DNA of 64,000 nt, taken from assembly GCF_000620845.1 (NCBI RefSeq), contig NZ_KK211189.1:2628162-2692161 (forward strand), in the 5' to 3' direction. Position 1 is the first letter of the stretch. The number at the start of each line of letters is the position of its first letter. The DNA comes from Exiguobacterium marinum DSM 16307 (lineage in GTDB: Bacteria > Bacillota > Bacilli > Exiguobacteriales > Exiguobacteriaceae). The notes beneath the pieces are model-generated. The model saw nothing but the letters and a program-made list of their open reading frames with translations. It ran no database searches and was not told where the DNA came from. Both the position numbers and the translations under genes were made by a program. Below are positions 15,334-30,437 of this stretch, one piece after another.

Positions 15334-15804
15334 TTACTCCACCACCTTGATTTTAGTCGACATCATGTGATGTCCTGTTCCACAATATTCGTTACAAAGA
15401 ATCAAAAATTCTCCAGCTTCCTCAAACGTGTACGTCAATGAGTTGATATGTCCAGGGACGACCATCATATTGACCGGTGTACCTGTCAACTGAAATCCGT
15501 GAACGACGTCCGGTGACGTCACGAGGAACGTCACTTTTGCACCTTTTGGAATTTCGACATTCCCTGGTGTAAAGGTAAATGCTTGTGCAATCATGACGAG
15601 CTCGTATTCATTCTCGCCAATTTGATGAAGTCCCGGTTGATCAAACGGAGCCGTCTGATTCACTTTTGCCGGGTCGATCAAATCCGCATCCGATGCAGGT
15701 TGATTTCCCGCTGCGAAGGCAGATACCCCTAGAACAGTCAAGAAAACTGCAAGTAAGATAATACCAAACGTAAGCCAATATTTTTCTAATTTATGAATAT
15801 GCAT
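15334..15804 (-). CDS. cbaB: ba3-type cytochrome c oxidase subunit II with CuA centre
   Basis: A 156-residue protein with one N-terminal helix (residues 10-32) and an outward cupredoxin domain. The CuA ligands are in CNEYCGTGHHMM (about 136-147) with an earlier His in DVVHGF. It receives electrons from cytochrome c. The length is typical for B-type oxidases. The gene lies between subunit IIa and subunit I. Confidence 0.92.
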   Translation of the reverse strand: MHIHKLEKYWLTFGIILLAVFLTVLGVSAFAAGNQPASDADLIDPAKVNQTAPFDQPGLHQIGENEYELVMIAQAFTFTPGNVEIPKGAKVTFLVTSPDVVHGFQLTGTPVNMMVVPGHINSLTYTFEEAGEFLILCNEYCGTGHHMMSTKIKVVE

Positions 15805-25532: not shown

Positions 25533-26993
25533 TTAAGAATGTTGTGAAGGTTCAGGTCGGTGCGTTGGTAATCGGGACGCAATGATAAACGCGATGATTG
25601 CGGCGACCATCGCCCCGATAAATATACTGTTCAATCCGGTCGCGATGATTTGTTCACCTTGCAGACGGACAGAGGCGCTTAGCGTCTCCGTCACACGTTG
25701 ATTAAAGAAATCTTCCAAAGACACTTTGGATAACGAGCTGCTTTCTTTAAAGTCGTTAAGAACGACAAAATTGAAAACCGCCCCAAACACAGCGACACCG
25801 AGCGTTTGACCGACTGTACTTAAAAATGAATTGGTCGCAGTCGCCGTTCCGCGTTGTTGATACGAGACGACGGTTTGCAGGACGACGATAAACATCGGCT
25901 GGGACAATCCAAATCCGACACCAATCAACGCCACTGCACTATATACCCACACGTCCGAACTAGACTGTGACAATAGCGTTAACGTGAGTGTCCCGATGAC
26001 GAGTAACCCCATTCCAATCATGGCACGCCGTCTCGGAGAAGCCACACCGAGTGTCCGTCCACCGATAATCGACGTGAATGTCCACGCAACAGATAATGGC
26101 ATCAGCATAAATCCGGCCTCTGTCGCCGTCTTGCCCAAAACAGCTTGTGCCCAGATTGGAATATAGGCTGACATGGAGACGAGTACCCAGGCTGCAAAGA
26201 AGACCGAACCGTTGATTGCGGCAATCGTTGGCTGCTTTAACAAGTCAAGCGGCAACAAGGGAGATTTTGCTTTTCGTTCCGATAAGAAGAAACTACCTAA
26301 CAAAACGATACTTAACATTCCACTTCCGACGATCGTCGTCGTCCATTCATTCGTTTCACTGAACGTGATGAGGGCATATAAAAATGCGGTAGTTCCACTA
26401 GCAAACAAAAGGGCCCCTTTCAAATCGATTCGTTCACTCGTCTCGGTGACGTTCTCTTTATAAAAGATGATAATCATGATGAATGAGAGTAAGGCAAACG
26501 GCACGTTCAATAAGAATACGTAACGCCATGATAACGTTTCAACTAAAAATCCGCCGATAACGGGACCGAGTACACCCGATACCCCCCAAACCGCGCTTAA
26601 AATCCCTTGAATCTTTCCACGCTCTTCATATTTATATAAATCACCGATAATCGTCATCGAAATCGGGAGTACCGCACCAGCCCCCAAACCTTGCAGTGCT
26701 CGAAAGACGATCAATTGTTCCATCGATGTCGCCAGTCCACACAATAATGAGGATAGTGTAAATAATCCGATTCCAAACAACAAGACACGTTTACGCCCGA
26801 ACAAATCTGCTACTTTCCCATAAATCGGTGTCGATACCGCTGTAAATAGTAAAAAGGCAGCAAACACCCAACTGACGAGCGTCGCTCCGTTCAATTCGCT
26901 AGCGATAACCGGTGTCGCAACTGATACGACCGTTCCTTCAATTGCCGCTAAAAAGGTTGCCAACAAAAGAGCAACCGTCACATTTTTTCTCAT
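25533..26993 (-). CDS. DHA2-family multidrug MFS transporter
   Basis: A 486-residue transporter with about 14 helices. The N-terminus NVTVALLLATFLAAIEGTVVSVATP carries the DHA2 motif, and loop 2-3 has GKVADLFGRKRV. Relatives (EmrB/QacA/LmrB) export lipophilic drugs with protons. The open frame extends upstream; ATG 26993 with GGGGAG at 9 nt is the likely start. A terminator-like hairpin lies between nosF and this gene, directly before its ribosome binding site. Confidence 0.88.
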   Translation of the reverse strand: MRKNVTVALLLATFLAAIEGTVVSVATPVIASELNGATLVSWVFAAFLLFTAVSTPIYGKVADLFGRKRVLLFGIGLFTLSSLLCGLATSMEQLIVFRALQGLGAGAVLPISMTIIGDLYKYEERGKIQGILSAVWGVSGVLGPVIGGFLVETLSWRYVFLLNVPFALLSFIMIIIFYKENVTETSERIDLKGALLFASGTTAFLYALITFSETNEWTTTIVGSGMLSIVLLGSFFLSERKAKSPLLPLDLLKQPTIAAINGSVFFAAWVLVSMSAYIPIWAQAVLGKTATEAGFMLMPLSVAWTFTSIIGGRTLGVASPRRRAMIGMGLLVIGTLTLTLLSQSSSDVWVYSAVALIGVGFGLSQPMFIVVLQTVVSYQQRGTATATNSFLSTVGQTLGVAVFGAVFNFVVLNDFKESSSLSKVSLEDFFNQRVTETLSASVRLQGEQIIATGLNSIFIGAMVAAIIAFIIASRLPTHRPEPSQHS

Positions 26994-27016
26994 CCATTCC
27001 ATCTCCCCAAAAAAAT

Positions 27017-27046
27017 AGTGGCGTCGGAAGGTTCCGAGCACCACTT
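27017..27046 (-). terminator. Terminator between nosF and the MFS gene
   Basis: Leftward, AGTGGTGCTCGGAA pairs with TTCCGACGCCACT (small internal loop), followed by ATTTTTTTGGGG. The MFS ribosome binding site begins immediately after the T run. Confidence 0.75.
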
Positions 27047-27056
27047 CAACTGTCTA

Positions 27057-27776
27057 TTATTTTGTGCGAGCCACGTCTATTTGACAAGTGTCATCTTTCG
27101 ATTCGAAAAAGAATTCTCTCAGTCGTTCGTATGCGGCCTGTTCTTCTTGAACATATACCTTCCCACAAACAGAACCTGCTCGCATCATCCAGACTTCGTC
27201 TGACAACATAGCAGCAACGTCCAACTGATGCGTTGAAAACACGATGGTCGCCCCTCGCTCGGCTTCCTGTCGTAATATGTCTCCGAGTGTATGCATCCAA
27301 ATGGGGTCTAGGCCATTCGTCGGCTCATCTAGTAAAAGAATATCCGGTTCGCTCACAAGTGCTTGAGACAGCAGGAGCCGTTGGCGCATCCCTTTCGAGA
27401 GTTCGGCGACGCGCTTTTGCTTATGTTCATACAATCCGACCCGCTCAAGAATTTTAGGAATCGGGCGTGCCCCTTGCAAAAAAGAATAATAAGCAAACGT
27501 CTCTTCAACTGTCCATGCGCCGTCAAATGAGAAATCGTCCGGCATGTATCCAAAGTTTTGATTATATTTCGTCCGTTGTTTGATTGTATAGCCGTTCAAT
27601 TGAATGATCCCGGTGCTCGGTTCAATCGTACCGTTCATTAGATTCAAAAGCGTCGATTTCCCAGCTCCGTTGCTCCCGCATAATGCAACAATTCGCCCCG
27701 GATTAATTTCTTCACGAATAGGATGGAGCGACCATGTATTACCATACTTTTTGCCTACGTCTACACAGTTAATCAT
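27057..27776 (-). CDS. nosF: NosF-like ABC transporter ATPase
   Basis: A 239-residue ATPase with Walker A GSNGAGKST, signature LSKGMRQRLLLSQ, Walker B ILLLDEPTNG and switch FSTHQ. ATG 27776 (after GGAGGAAAACGTC) overlaps the nosY stop by 4 bp; the longer open frame is not used. With NosY it forms the NosFY exporter that, with NosD, delivers a copper or sulfur species for cuproprotein maturation. Confidence 0.82.
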   Translation of the reverse strand: MINCVDVGKKYGNTWSLHPIREEINPGRIVALCGSNGAGKSTLLNLMNGTIEPSTGIIQLNGYTIKQRTKYNQNFGYMPDDFSFDGAWTVEETFAYYSFLQGARPIPKILERVGLYEHKQKRVAELSKGMRQRLLLSQALVSEPDILLLDEPTNGLDPIWMHTLGDILRQEAERGATIVFSTHQLDVAAMLSDEVWMMRAGSVCGKVYVQEEQAAYERLREFFFESKDDTCQIDVARTK

Positions 27777-28564
27777 GACGTTTTCCTCCAAACCAATATC
27801 GAAGCAAGCCATAGTAAGAAGCCACTCATCGTAAGTAAGGTCGCCCAAACCACTGCATACCCAATCGGTCGATTCATCCAACTCAATAGATCAAGATAGA
27901 CATCTCCAAAAACGTCTGATGATGACGCCGCTGTACTGGCCCAAATTCGCATCAAATCAAATCCATTCATAAACAACATAACGATCATCCCGTTCACTTG
28001 CATGCCGTAAGGGAGCCAGGAAATGATGGTCACGAGAATTGTCGGCCAAAGTAATATGAGGAGGACCCACGTTAAAAAAGCAAGCAATATCGCCCGAATC
28101 CGCGTACGTCCCACTAACCCAAGTAACGTACCGAGCGCTGCAGCATAGATCGTCAATCCAATCGCATAGGAAAGCAGAATCATCCATGTCTGAATCGATT
28201 GCCCGACCACGAGCGAGGCAATGAGGAATGCCAATAATAGAATGAGTACTTGCGTGACCAAAAAAGTGCTGAACCGAACGAAAATCAGCTTCCACTTCGG
28301 ATAGGTGAACGTTGACAGCAAGTTCAGTCGCTTCGACTCCCGCTCTTGCCCCCAATGGAGTGCCGTCGTCAATAAAATAAAAAGAGGGAGCAACAAACCG
28401 AGCACCGTGATGAGCGTTGCGCTTATATTCGTATAGTTCGCAGCAACCGGTAATGCTTGTCCAAGCCCCCCTAGTAGAACGAGCGTGAGAACCCATGTGA
28501 ATAAGAAAACGTAATTTTCTCGTTGCCGTAGGGTGCGTGCCCATTCCATTCTCCATAACGACAT
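27773..28564 (-). CDS. nosY: NosY-like ABC transporter permease
   Basis: A 263-residue permease with six predicted helices, the first near residue 20-38, and an N-terminal MSLWRMEWARTLRQRENYVFLF typical for ABC-2 type NosY. It lies 3 bp after nosL and overlaps nosF. It is the membrane part of the NosDFY complex. Confidence 0.8.
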   Translation of the reverse strand: MSLWRMEWARTLRQRENYVFLFTWVLTLVLLGGLGQALPVAANYTNISATLITVLGLLLPLFILLTTALHWGQERESKRLNLLSTFTYPKWKLIFVRFSTFLVTQVLILLLAFLIASLVVGQSIQTWMILLSYAIGLTIYAAALGTLLGLVGRTRIRAILLAFLTWVLLILLWPTILVTIISWLPYGMQVNGMIVMLFMNGFDLMRIWASTAASSSDVFGDVYLDLLSWMNRPIGYAVVWATLLTMSGFLLWLASILVWRKTS

Positions 28565-28567
28565 CGT

Positions 28568-29125
28568 TTACTGCCCTTCTTCTTCCATTTCCATGTCCAT
28601 TTCCGTATCACCATCATGATTATGGTCCATCGAACCTTCGCCGTCCATCATCATCTTCATCTCGCCGCGTTCCCACGTATGATCTTTTAATTGATCAAAG
28701 TCCATCATTTCGCCGCCATTGTCTTCCATATAGGCTTCAGCGTCTGCCTCTTTTGCGAACGAGAGAATATTATAAGCCATCGGTGTTTTTGACTCTTTGT
28801 CGTAAACAAACATCGCTTCGTCTAATTCGACCCAATCTTTCGTATTGAAGTCCTTCACATACATTGCAGCGATGTCTTCTTCTTTTTGTTCAGGATACCA
28901 ATCTCGCATGAGACAACCGATGTCATCAAATGCATATCCTTTTTCATTTTCCATGATCGCTTCCGCTGCAAACTGCTCATCCATAATTTTCATTTTACAT
29001 ACTTCACATTCGGTTTCGCCCCATTTGATATCAAACGGTTCTGCCGATGCACTTGAACATGCACCGAGTGCTAAAGATAGTCCTGCTACTGATAATAATC
29101 CTGCTACTTGTTTATACGATTTCAT
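28568..29125 (-). CDS. nosL: NosL copper-chaperone lipoprotein with metal-rich tail
   Basis: A 185-residue lipoprotein. The lipobox is LALGAC (Cys near 23). The NosL copper site CKMKIMDEQFAAE follows WGETECEVC, and YAFDDIGCLM fits the family. NosL carries Cu(I) to the Nos assembly complex. An unusual C-terminal tail (about 145-185) is packed with Met, Asp, Glu and His (MKMMMDGEG, MDHNHDGDTEMDMEMEEE) and could bind extra metal. ATG 29125 after GGGAGGAAAAGAC is chosen over TTG 29140; the gene overlaps the end of nosD by 14 bp. Confidence 0.88.
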   Translation of the reverse strand: MKSYKQVAGLLSVAGLSLALGACSSASAEPFDIKWGETECEVCKMKIMDEQFAAEAIMENEKGYAFDDIGCLMRDWYPEQKEEDIAAMYVKDFNTKDWVELDEAMFVYDKESKTPMAYNILSFAKEADAEAYMEDNGGEMMDFDQLKDHTWERGEMKMMMDGEGSMDHNHDGDTEMDMEMEEEGQ

Positions 29126-30296
29126 GTCTTTTCCTCCCAATTATCCAAATCATGATGAATAAAATGATACTCCCTAAGCTCCAAATCGAACCGTTCCATT
29201 GCCACGTCGCGGAATAGGTTTGTGGCGTAATATCTGTCAAAGATAAGTCTTCCGGGCTTCTCAGTATGTTTTCTAGTAGAAGAAGACCCGGTGACCCGTA
29301 CAATAATTCAAATGCCTCATATGAATCCGTTAATAAAAATAAATACGGATCGGTACGAAATGGAATCTCACTATAACCGTCACGGTCTAGGTCAAGTGTC
29401 GTACCATCCCAAACATTACCTTGCACAATATTTTCATATGACTCGACCATTGTCACCGATTCACGATTCCCTAGTAGATTATTTTGAAGAATCATCATCC
29501 CTGTTGCTTGTTTCAATTGAAATCCAATATCGTTTCCATTGATCGCATTCCGTTCAAGAATCGTTCCTTCTGACTGCTCCGCATATAAACCGATATGATT
29601 TCCGTAAATATTCGTCATCTCAATTGTTGTGTCGACGGCCTCATATAACATCAATCCCGTCGCCGTTCCGCCGAATTGGTCGTGCACATTCCCATTTTTG
29701 AAAACGACCCGATTCGTTCCCATAATCATCGCACCTGTCAAGTTATGATGTAGTTCCGGTACCGAAATCACAAGGTCGGTCGGAAACATCAAATGAATGC
29801 CATATCGAGAATAGGAAATAACCGGTCGAACAATCGTGTGCTGGGACCCGTTTTCTATGTAAATCCCATCTCGCACACCTTTGACAACGACTCCTTTTAA
29901 TTCTGCCGCTTCGCTATTTAGAAGTGCGACTCCATCCGCCTGGCCGTTCCCATACACAGCAGTTCGTATGACACGAACACCGTAACTATCTTCAATCAAC
30001 AGACCGGTACCTGAAGACTCAATCGACACATCGAGTAGCTGATGTCCAAGACCAGATACGTGAATCGCCGGTGCCTCATCACCCTCGCACTGCTGAATCG
30101 ACACACGTTCAAGCACTGCACCCGTTCCTTTTATAATAAAAGCGGGATGACCACAACTCGTATACGTTTTTCCAGCCCCATCAAAACTGTTATTCGATTC
30201 GATAACAATCGGTTCAGTCACCGGAATCGATGCTCCTTCCGCATTCGCATGCGGCATCCAACACATAAATAGGATGAATATCAGTAACCGTTTCAT
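29112..30296 (-). CDS. nosD: NosD-like periplasmic/extracytoplasmic beta-helix protein
   Basis: A 394-residue exported protein with signal peptide (1-19, ending ANAEG), a right-handed beta-helix of parallel repeats (about 40-300; for example GVRVIRTAVYGNGQADG and NIYGNHIGLYAEQSEGT) and a C-terminal membrane helix (about 370-388) followed by RKRHE. NosD links NosFY to its target outside the membrane. It is the first gene of nosD-L-Y-F. There is no nosZ or nosR next to it. Confidence 0.85.
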   Translation of the reverse strand: MKRLLIFILFMCWMPHANAEGASIPVTEPIVIESNNSFDGAGKTYTSCGHPAFIIKGTGAVLERVSIQQCEGDEAPAIHVSGLGHQLLDVSIESSGTGLLIEDSYGVRVIRTAVYGNGQADGVALLNSEAAELKGVVVKGVRDGIYIENGSQHTIVRPVISYSRYGIHLMFPTDLVISVPELHHNLTGAMIMGTNRVVFKNGNVHDQFGGTATGLMLYEAVDTTIEMTNIYGNHIGLYAEQSEGTILERNAINGNDIGFQLKQATGMMILQNNLLGNRESVTMVESYENIVQGNVWDGTTLDLDRDGYSEIPFRTDPYLFLLTDSYEAFELLYGSPGLLLLENILRSPEDLSLTDITPQTYSATWQWNGSIWSLGSIILFIMIWIIGRKRHEIV

Positions 30297-30323: not shown

Positions 30324-30401
30324 ACATCCATTCTACTGAAACCCCCATAGGTATGTGTGTGGTTTGTATGGGGTTCCTGTGACAGTTTCTTCATAAAAAA
30401 A

Positions 30402-30437
30402 ACACAAACGGTGAAGGGGTCGTTTCACCGTCTGTGT
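30402..30437 (-). terminator. Terminator of the sugar-binding protein gene
   Basis: ACACAAACGGTGAA pairs with TTTCACCGTCTGTGT; leftward it is followed by eight T. Confidence 0.85.

Follow-up and report, generated by a model that had tools for sequence, protein, structure and literature searches.

The window analyzed here, a stretch of 64,000 nucleotides from contig NZ_KK211189.1 of Exiguobacterium marinum DSM 16307 (positions 2,628,162 to 2,692,161), encodes on its minus strand a nosD-nosL-nosY-nosF operon (nosDLYF), related to the machinery that serves the N2O reductase NosZ. The genome, 2.81 Mb in 2 contigs, has a completeness of 100%. A preliminary description of the window had reported the four genes as complete and in order, and this is borne out by four intact open reading frames (ORFs) at 27057-30296 (window coordinates):

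29112..30296, minus strand: nosD, a beta-helix protein with a signal sequence and a C-terminal transmembrane stretch (both by eye) and the conserved residues His168, Met170, Met190 and Met192
28568..29125, minus strand: nosL, a lipoprotein with Cys28, a CxxCxM motif (C45, C48, M50), Met121 and an acidic Met/His tail
27773..28564, minus strand: nosY, an ATP-binding cassette (ABC) permease
27057..27776, minus strand: nosF, an ABC ATPase of 239 aa whose start overlaps the nosY stop

The genes are tightly packed. The nosL ORF opens at TTG 29140 (from which its residues are numbered here), but its likely start is ATG 29125, which shares 14 bases with nosD; nosY starts 3 bases downstream of nosL, and the nosF ATG (27776) and the nosY stop overlap as ATGA. 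A nosF start at 27881 was dropped in favor of this overlapping ATG, which gives nosF the extent 27057-27776. All four products can be placed by profile comparison. NosD exceeds the cut-off of Pfam PF05048 (88.5 vs 23.6 bits) and matches the solved NosD 7o0y_A with E 2.9e-53, while staying below the NCBIfam subfamily cut-off of TIGR04247, maturation protein NosD (155.8 vs 300 bits); its 11 best named relatives, among 80 loci listed, are all from Exiguobacterium. NosL exceeds the cut-off of PF05573 (72.1 vs 24 bits), matches the solved NosL structures 7znq and 7osf, and has the lipobox Cys28, the predicted Cu(I) motif C45-x-x-C48-x-M50 and the second conserved Met121. NosF scores 109.7 bits against Pfam ABC_tran (cut-off 25) and retains Walker A, LSKGM and LLLDEP motifs. 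The sole Pfam match of NosY lies under its cut-off (20 vs 27.2 bits), and its identity comes from the profile match to the solved NosY 7o0y_D (E 4.9e-24). The set thus shares homologous NosD, NosL and NosY, the NosL lipobox and the Cu(I) motif with the NosDFY-NosL machinery of N2O reductase, and its NosL CxxCxM is the motif named for clade II NosL in the part of PMC6530538 available to us.

The absence of nosZ, likewise claimed in the preliminary description, extends to the whole genome as searched with clade II and lactonase-type NosZ models (the genome searches extended to neither clade I NosZ nor nosR). With both models the sole match is the CuA domain of a ba3-type oxidase subunit II, at 46.8 of 625 bits for the clade II model and 32.5 of 700 bits for the lactonase-type model; nothing above the cut-off came from the 14 control genomes either, and a PF18764 search for NosZ gave no match in any control genome. 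The clade II model works in related bacteria, since it recovers 21 full NosZ genes among 398 genomes of the class; none of the 38 genomes of the order exceeds its cut-off. Candidate lactonase-type NosZ genes beside nosDLYF in three loci of the class (L153, L162, L128) were rejected as weak propeller matches without a CuA domain. With no nosZ found by the clade II and lactonase-type models, the earlier suggestion that this orphan set serves another target is presumably correct.

The operon very probably belongs to a widespread branch of these genes that is separate from, and independent of, nosZ, as judged by gene content, phylogeny and residue conservation. We examined 39 further NosL regions of the class, picked by NosL score and variety rather than at random (L170 was excluded), and 37 of them hold a complete D-L-Y-F set, none with nosZ in the same region. 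The exceptions are L111, where NosD could not be found, and L169, which has two NosL and a NosF with neither D nor Y. The L111 arrangement, nosL-nosY-nosF without a recognised nosD, belongs to the genome that scores highest for NosL in the class sample. Conversely, D, Y and F adjoin nosZ in 19 of 20 nosZ loci, and nosL lies inside the nosZ cluster in just two of them (L133 and L134, of one genus). In each of three genomes (G048, G186, G270), a nosZ-D-Y-F cluster that lacks nosL coexists with a distinct D-L-Y-F set. A maximum-likelihood tree was built from 70 rows of NosD+Y+F (quick search, support by the approximate likelihood ratio test SH-aLRT only, root not inferred); in it, the 19 nosZ-linked rows form one side of a branch with SH-aLRT 99. 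Opposite them lie the 51 unlinked rows, 48 from genomes without nosZ and three from genomes with nosZ elsewhere; the window set falls outside the nosZ-linked clade. Left out of the tree were L105-L107, L109 and L110 (no operon), L108 (a remnant), L111 (no NosD found), L141 (a nosZ locus in which D, Y and F were not found), L169 and L170. L161 sits on a long branch, and two nosZ loci with the gene order D-F-Y (L139, L149) have very long ones.

The same split is marked by a single NosD residue. His168, Met170 and Met192 are invariant in nosZ-linked and unlinked rows alike; position 190 is Met in 50 of the 51 unlinked rows, whereas all 19 nosZ-linked ones have Ala (17) or Thr (2) there. Among the 102 genomes of the class sample with a strong NosL (best E <=1e-8; the 22 weaker of the 124 hits were excluded), 94 lack a nosZ above the clade II cut-off. 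Hence, genes annotated as nosD, nosL, nosY and nosF are no sign of N2O reduction.

NosL itself retains CxxCxM in 63/63 rows. The preliminary description had singled out its Met/Asp/His-rich tail as unusual. The tail is real, with 34 residues past Trp156 that include 8 Met, 2 His and 13 Asp/Glu, but it is not unusual, as such tails are common in the unlinked branch: the 14 Exiguobacterium NosL have tails of 30-37 residues, and most other orphan NosL have Met/His-rich tails too, against 6 residues in the two nosZ-linked NosL. Seven clusters (L114, L115, L116, L164, L165, L166, L168) have two nosL genes; the tail has 3-4 residues in one product, whereas that of the other is of the Met/His type and 25-43 residues long, and a division of labor between short- and long-tailed NosL is possible there.

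Comparable clusters have been described before. For Bacillus azotoformans, nosDYF sets without NosZ association, nosL among them, were reported in 2012 (PMC3475470), and for Parageobacillus thermoglucosidasius a NosL-NosDFY locus without nosZ in 2026 (PMC13068155); both have the same genes with no adjacent nosZ, and another copper protein was suggested as client. B. azotoformans differs in that three of its five nos clusters include nosZ. The passages of the two papers available to us describe neither a separate clade nor a promoter site of the kind reported below. They put forward copper nitrite reductase (NirK) as a possible client. For the window operon this is scarcely credible: the best own-genome match to the NirK model has an E-value of 4.5e-5, which rejects NirK as recipient here unless it is very divergent, and NirK-like genes occur in only 12 of the 94 nosZ-less strong-NosL genomes, 11 of them in one genus group (NirK-like denotes matches under 1e-41, the model cut-off being reached by none of the 398 class genomes).

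NosL is patchily distributed in the order, being present in 13/19 genomes of the window's genus and 1/19 of the sister genus (14/38 in all). Among the six congeners that lack a functional operon, five show a clean loss, with the flanking genes abutting directly, and one (G011) has a decaying remnant with nosF and nosD fragments left. The neighbors read around the six lost operons are all kept, except for an htpX-like gene in G014. Such a pattern might suggest that the operon is a decaying relic of a lost nosZ cluster, with one genome caught in mid-decay. This we regard as very improbable, given that its clade is distinct from the nosZ-linked sets, that its promoter site is conserved, and that where the operon is present its genes are under purifying selection: pairwise ratios of nonsynonymous to synonymous substitution (dN/dS) for nosD, nosL, nosY and nosF are 0.02-0.18 over eight pairs, not near 1 (misalignment led to the removal of three cells, two pairs for nosF and one for MFS2). 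Among neighbors, the solute-binding-protein and major facilitator superfamily (MFS) genes have lower values (0.01-0.05), and gsdh has values similar to those of the nos genes (0.09-0.16).

A candidate recipient of copper lies in the same window, outside the operon:

15334..15804, minus strand: ba3-type CuA subunit II

The preliminary description had proposed this subunit as the client, which would make nosDLYF a system devoted to maturing the CuA site of the ba3 oxidase. The two loci are 11 kb apart, their synteny is kept with or without the operon, and no other recipient is encoded nearby. In the class, a CoxB-family match is found in 101/102 strong-NosL genomes vs 247/296 others, a comparison that is confounded by kinship and in which the 101/102 count, made by eye, may include quinol-oxidase-type relatives without CuA. 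A need of this subunit for the operon is not supported. The ba3-type CuA subunit (recognised through weak short-ORF matches to the NosZ model, with the CuA ligand pattern present in all 30 loci read), two CoxB-family matches and Sco are each found in 38/38 genomes of the order, against the 14/38 with NosL; therefore the operon is not required for the ba3-type oxidase generally. All six same-genus genomes without a working operon keep subunit II at 91-95% identity over 154 residues, so that these natural losses suggest a normal CuA site without nosDLYF. In Paracoccus, moreover, the target of NosL is CuZ, and the lack of NosL makes CuA fail only when copper is limiting, according to the part of PMC6530538 consulted. 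Dedicated service to the ba3 site is thus improbable; the operon may yet have an accessory or copper-limited part to play for an oxidase.

The region upstream of nosD offers a clue of a different kind, in the form of three features:

30402..30437, minus strand: strong terminator-like hairpin with a T run, 3' of the upstream solute-binding-protein gene
30339..30354, minus strand: predicted CstR-type operator, a palindrome that reads ATACCTATGGGGGTTT on the minus strand and is conserved across the genus
30330..30335, minus strand: putative -10 box TAGAAT, directly downstream of the operator (by eye)

As the hairpin closes the upstream gene, nosD probably has its own promoter. Alignment of upstream regions from the genus reveals a conserved ATACC-N8-TTT element just 5' of a TANAAT box, which is visible in 10/13 regions, namely those reaching that far. 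CsoR-family operators are mostly pseudo-palindromes with G/C runs, and the one in Mycobacterium tuberculosis overlaps the -35 and -10 elements (PMC10318464, seen in part). Each of the 19 genus genomes encodes two CsoR-family proteins. The first precedes copA and copZ, as read, has a Cys/His/Cys set (by eye) and has its own conserved promoter site. The second is a dithiol, CstR-like protein with Cys34, Asn59 (replacing His) and Cys63, whose gene is divergent from a rhodanese gene and one for a disulfide-reductase/rhodanese/TusA/DsrE fusion, i.e. a two-Cys repressor without the metal-binding His beside sulfur-transfer genes, as in CstR regulons. The cst-like operon of Enterococcus faecalis likewise has a CstR-like dithiol repressor beside a rhodanese and a coenzyme A-persulfide-reductase-like fusion (PMC9405070, as far as seen).

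A matrix built solely from 11 of the 19 CstR-gene promoters of the genus, for which loci were available, gives the nosD site the top score among 127,970 window positions, and this score was reached in 1/2000 shuffles of the promoter region. By eye, 14/16 positions are identical to the site before the CstR-like gene of the window genome, so that this gene and nosD have a promoter site type in common. The site is the locus best in 14 of 15 Exiguobacterium loci and second in the remaining one (the 15 include the decaying remnant and the sister-genus locus, where operon neighbors are partly different), and it is missing from the five clean-loss intergenic regions. Across 477,476 bases of Exiguobacterium DNA, to a large extent corresponding loci of different species, 11 sites reach at least 13.5 bits: one CstR promoter, nine nosD promoters and the remnant's promoter. 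Copper control by CsoR was rejected, as the CsoR matrix does not pick out the palindrome: its best spot in the nosD promoter region lies at the terminator hairpin, with 1.3 bits, window rank 12 and 37/2000 shuffles reaching it. Control of nosDLYF by CstR therefore seems probable on the strength of these matches. It would differ from the situation in Staphylococcus aureus, where CstR likely controls a single operon, cst, directly (PMC5480029, from the part seen). Our literature search found no report joining CstR and NosD, and in the one paper that mentions both Exiguobacterium and NosL, the NosL passage is about another isolate, R. pycnus. While orphan nosDLYF clusters as such are already known, the present analysis contributes the split into clades, Met190 as a signature, the natural losses that leave CuA intact and the CstR-type operator, the literature having been searched for the CstR link only.

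NosL is a Cu(I)-binding protein, and CuZ of denitrifiers depends on NosDFY, which is an ABC machine (PMC6530538 and PMC7660919, both seen in part). As the Cu(I) motifs are kept in the unlinked branch and a Met is added, the hand-over of Cu(I) to an envelope cuproprotein appears to be the likeliest job of the operon, and we consider such a relay probable. Our overall reading, to which we give a probability of about 0.4, is that nosDLYF is an accessory Cu(I) relay, induced by sulfide or persulfide, that supplies envelope cuproproteins, perhaps including CuA oxidases. In Exiguobacterium, the persulfide sensor CstR would repress the operon until freed by sulfide or persulfide. NosL, as a membrane-anchored Cu(I) lipoprotein, would then pass Cu(I) to NosD seated on the NosFY transporter, and the use of ATP by NosF would alter NosD such that copper is transferred to an envelope cuproprotein other than NosZ. 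Sulfide binds copper, by which copper oxidases are both starved and poisoned. As an accessory supply line that might feed CuA oxidases, the operon would be useful under sulfur or copper stress and otherwise dispensable, a role that fits its repeated loss. The more specific version, in which CstR couples sulfide stress to the refilling of CuA oxidases by NosDLYF, or to the clearing of Cu-S from them, is put forward only tentatively.

Several observations weigh against this reading. The best NCBIfam match of both the CstR-like protein and CsoR is RicR, in each case far below the cut-off. Random sequence would be expected to hold about 14 sites of at least 13.5 bits per 2.8 Mb; four genus promoters score only 7.3-10.4 bits (L093, L098, L099, L100), and the sister-genus site (11.0 bits) is tied by another site in the same locus. 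The motif was initially spotted by eye and then taken as a CsoR site. Orphan nosD genes of other families have no CstR-type site; the sulfur link, if true, is therefore local. On the side of the recipient, 24 of the 38 order genomes have the same oxidase subunits without NosL, the operon neighbors in Exiguobacterium encode no recipient, and the Sco and CopC/CopD neighbors seen elsewhere (L125, L126) sit in genomes that also carry nosZ. The last point reduces our confidence in CuA, since it removes two loci with Sco neighbors, and a CuA oxidase as the main recipient is doubtful.

Two other functions have to be set beside the supply of cuproproteins. The relay might act in copper defence, clearing excess Cu(I) or Cu-sulfide species from the membrane surface with the NosL tail as a copper buffer, and the frequent Met/His/acidic tails of the unlinked branch, the patchy presence of NosL in the order and the one locus with CopC/CopD neighbors (in a genome that also has nosZ) would agree with this. 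Yet the nosD promoter site matches that of CstR rather than that of CsoR, the genome already encodes a CsoR-copA-copZ operon, and enzyme maturation is the setting in which systems of the NosDFY type are known; copper defence is accordingly the less likely role. Alternatively, NosDFY could move sulfur species outward, where they would meet NosL-bound Cu(I), in line with a proposal on the sulfur of CuZ. A sulfur-supply function of NosDFY is an idea cited in PMC7660919 (from the part seen), with which the CstR-type operator is consistent. This is nonetheless quite unlikely, as the genome has neither a clade II nor a lactonase-type NosZ, the operator is not found outside Exiguobacterium, and the kept His/Met residues of NosD, with one Met added, point to Cu(I). 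Whether the cargo of NosDFY is copper, sulfur or just conformational force is still debated, and the system has mostly been studied alongside NosZ. A set that departs from the N2O reductase machinery in having no nosZ, the extra NosD Met190 and predicted sulfur-type control, and that forms its own clade, offers a clean place to ask this question. If CstR does couple sulfide stress to the service of CuA oxidases by NosDLYF, a system known for N2O reductase would lead another life, under sulfur control, in aerobic Firmicutes, and the Met190/Ala switch of NosD would mark the change of client.

Gene neighborhoods of nosDLYF were compared in 33 loci (32 of other families and one of the sister genus), with a Pfam scan on 20 of the 220 neighbor ORFs. 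A YtkA-like gene adjoins the operon in three loci by Pfam (one just under the cut-off) and in one more by blastp only, a thioredoxin-like gene resembling ResA in four, Sco in two and CopC/CopD in one. L126, from a nosZ-carrying genome, also accounts for one YtkA-like and one ResA-resembling case, the remaining cases being in nosZ-less genomes. By these domain matches, the neighbors in some loci have envelope copper and thiol functions. The search for a free cupredoxin that might receive the copper used PF13473, which has no match in the window genome, although the model is insensitive and also misses the genome's own CuA subunits; in other genomes of the order its matches are ba3-type CuA, except in G001 (a CoxB gene) and G009 (a multicopper-oxidase-like ORF).

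Downstream of nosF, a drug-type MFS transporter (window 26960-27060) begins within a few dozen bases; since it stays put when the operon is lost, it probably does not belong to it. A second strong Sco homolog (E about 1e-31) is encoded in 19/19 genomes of the window's genus (e.g. G000:C2:2438245) and has no strong match in the 19 sister-genus genomes, a distribution that does not track nosDLYF. Near nosDLYF in two genera of one family (L153:1856-4912, L162:7842-10928), genes for a beta-propeller lipoprotein, a response regulator and a histidine kinase occur together in what looks like a sensor module.

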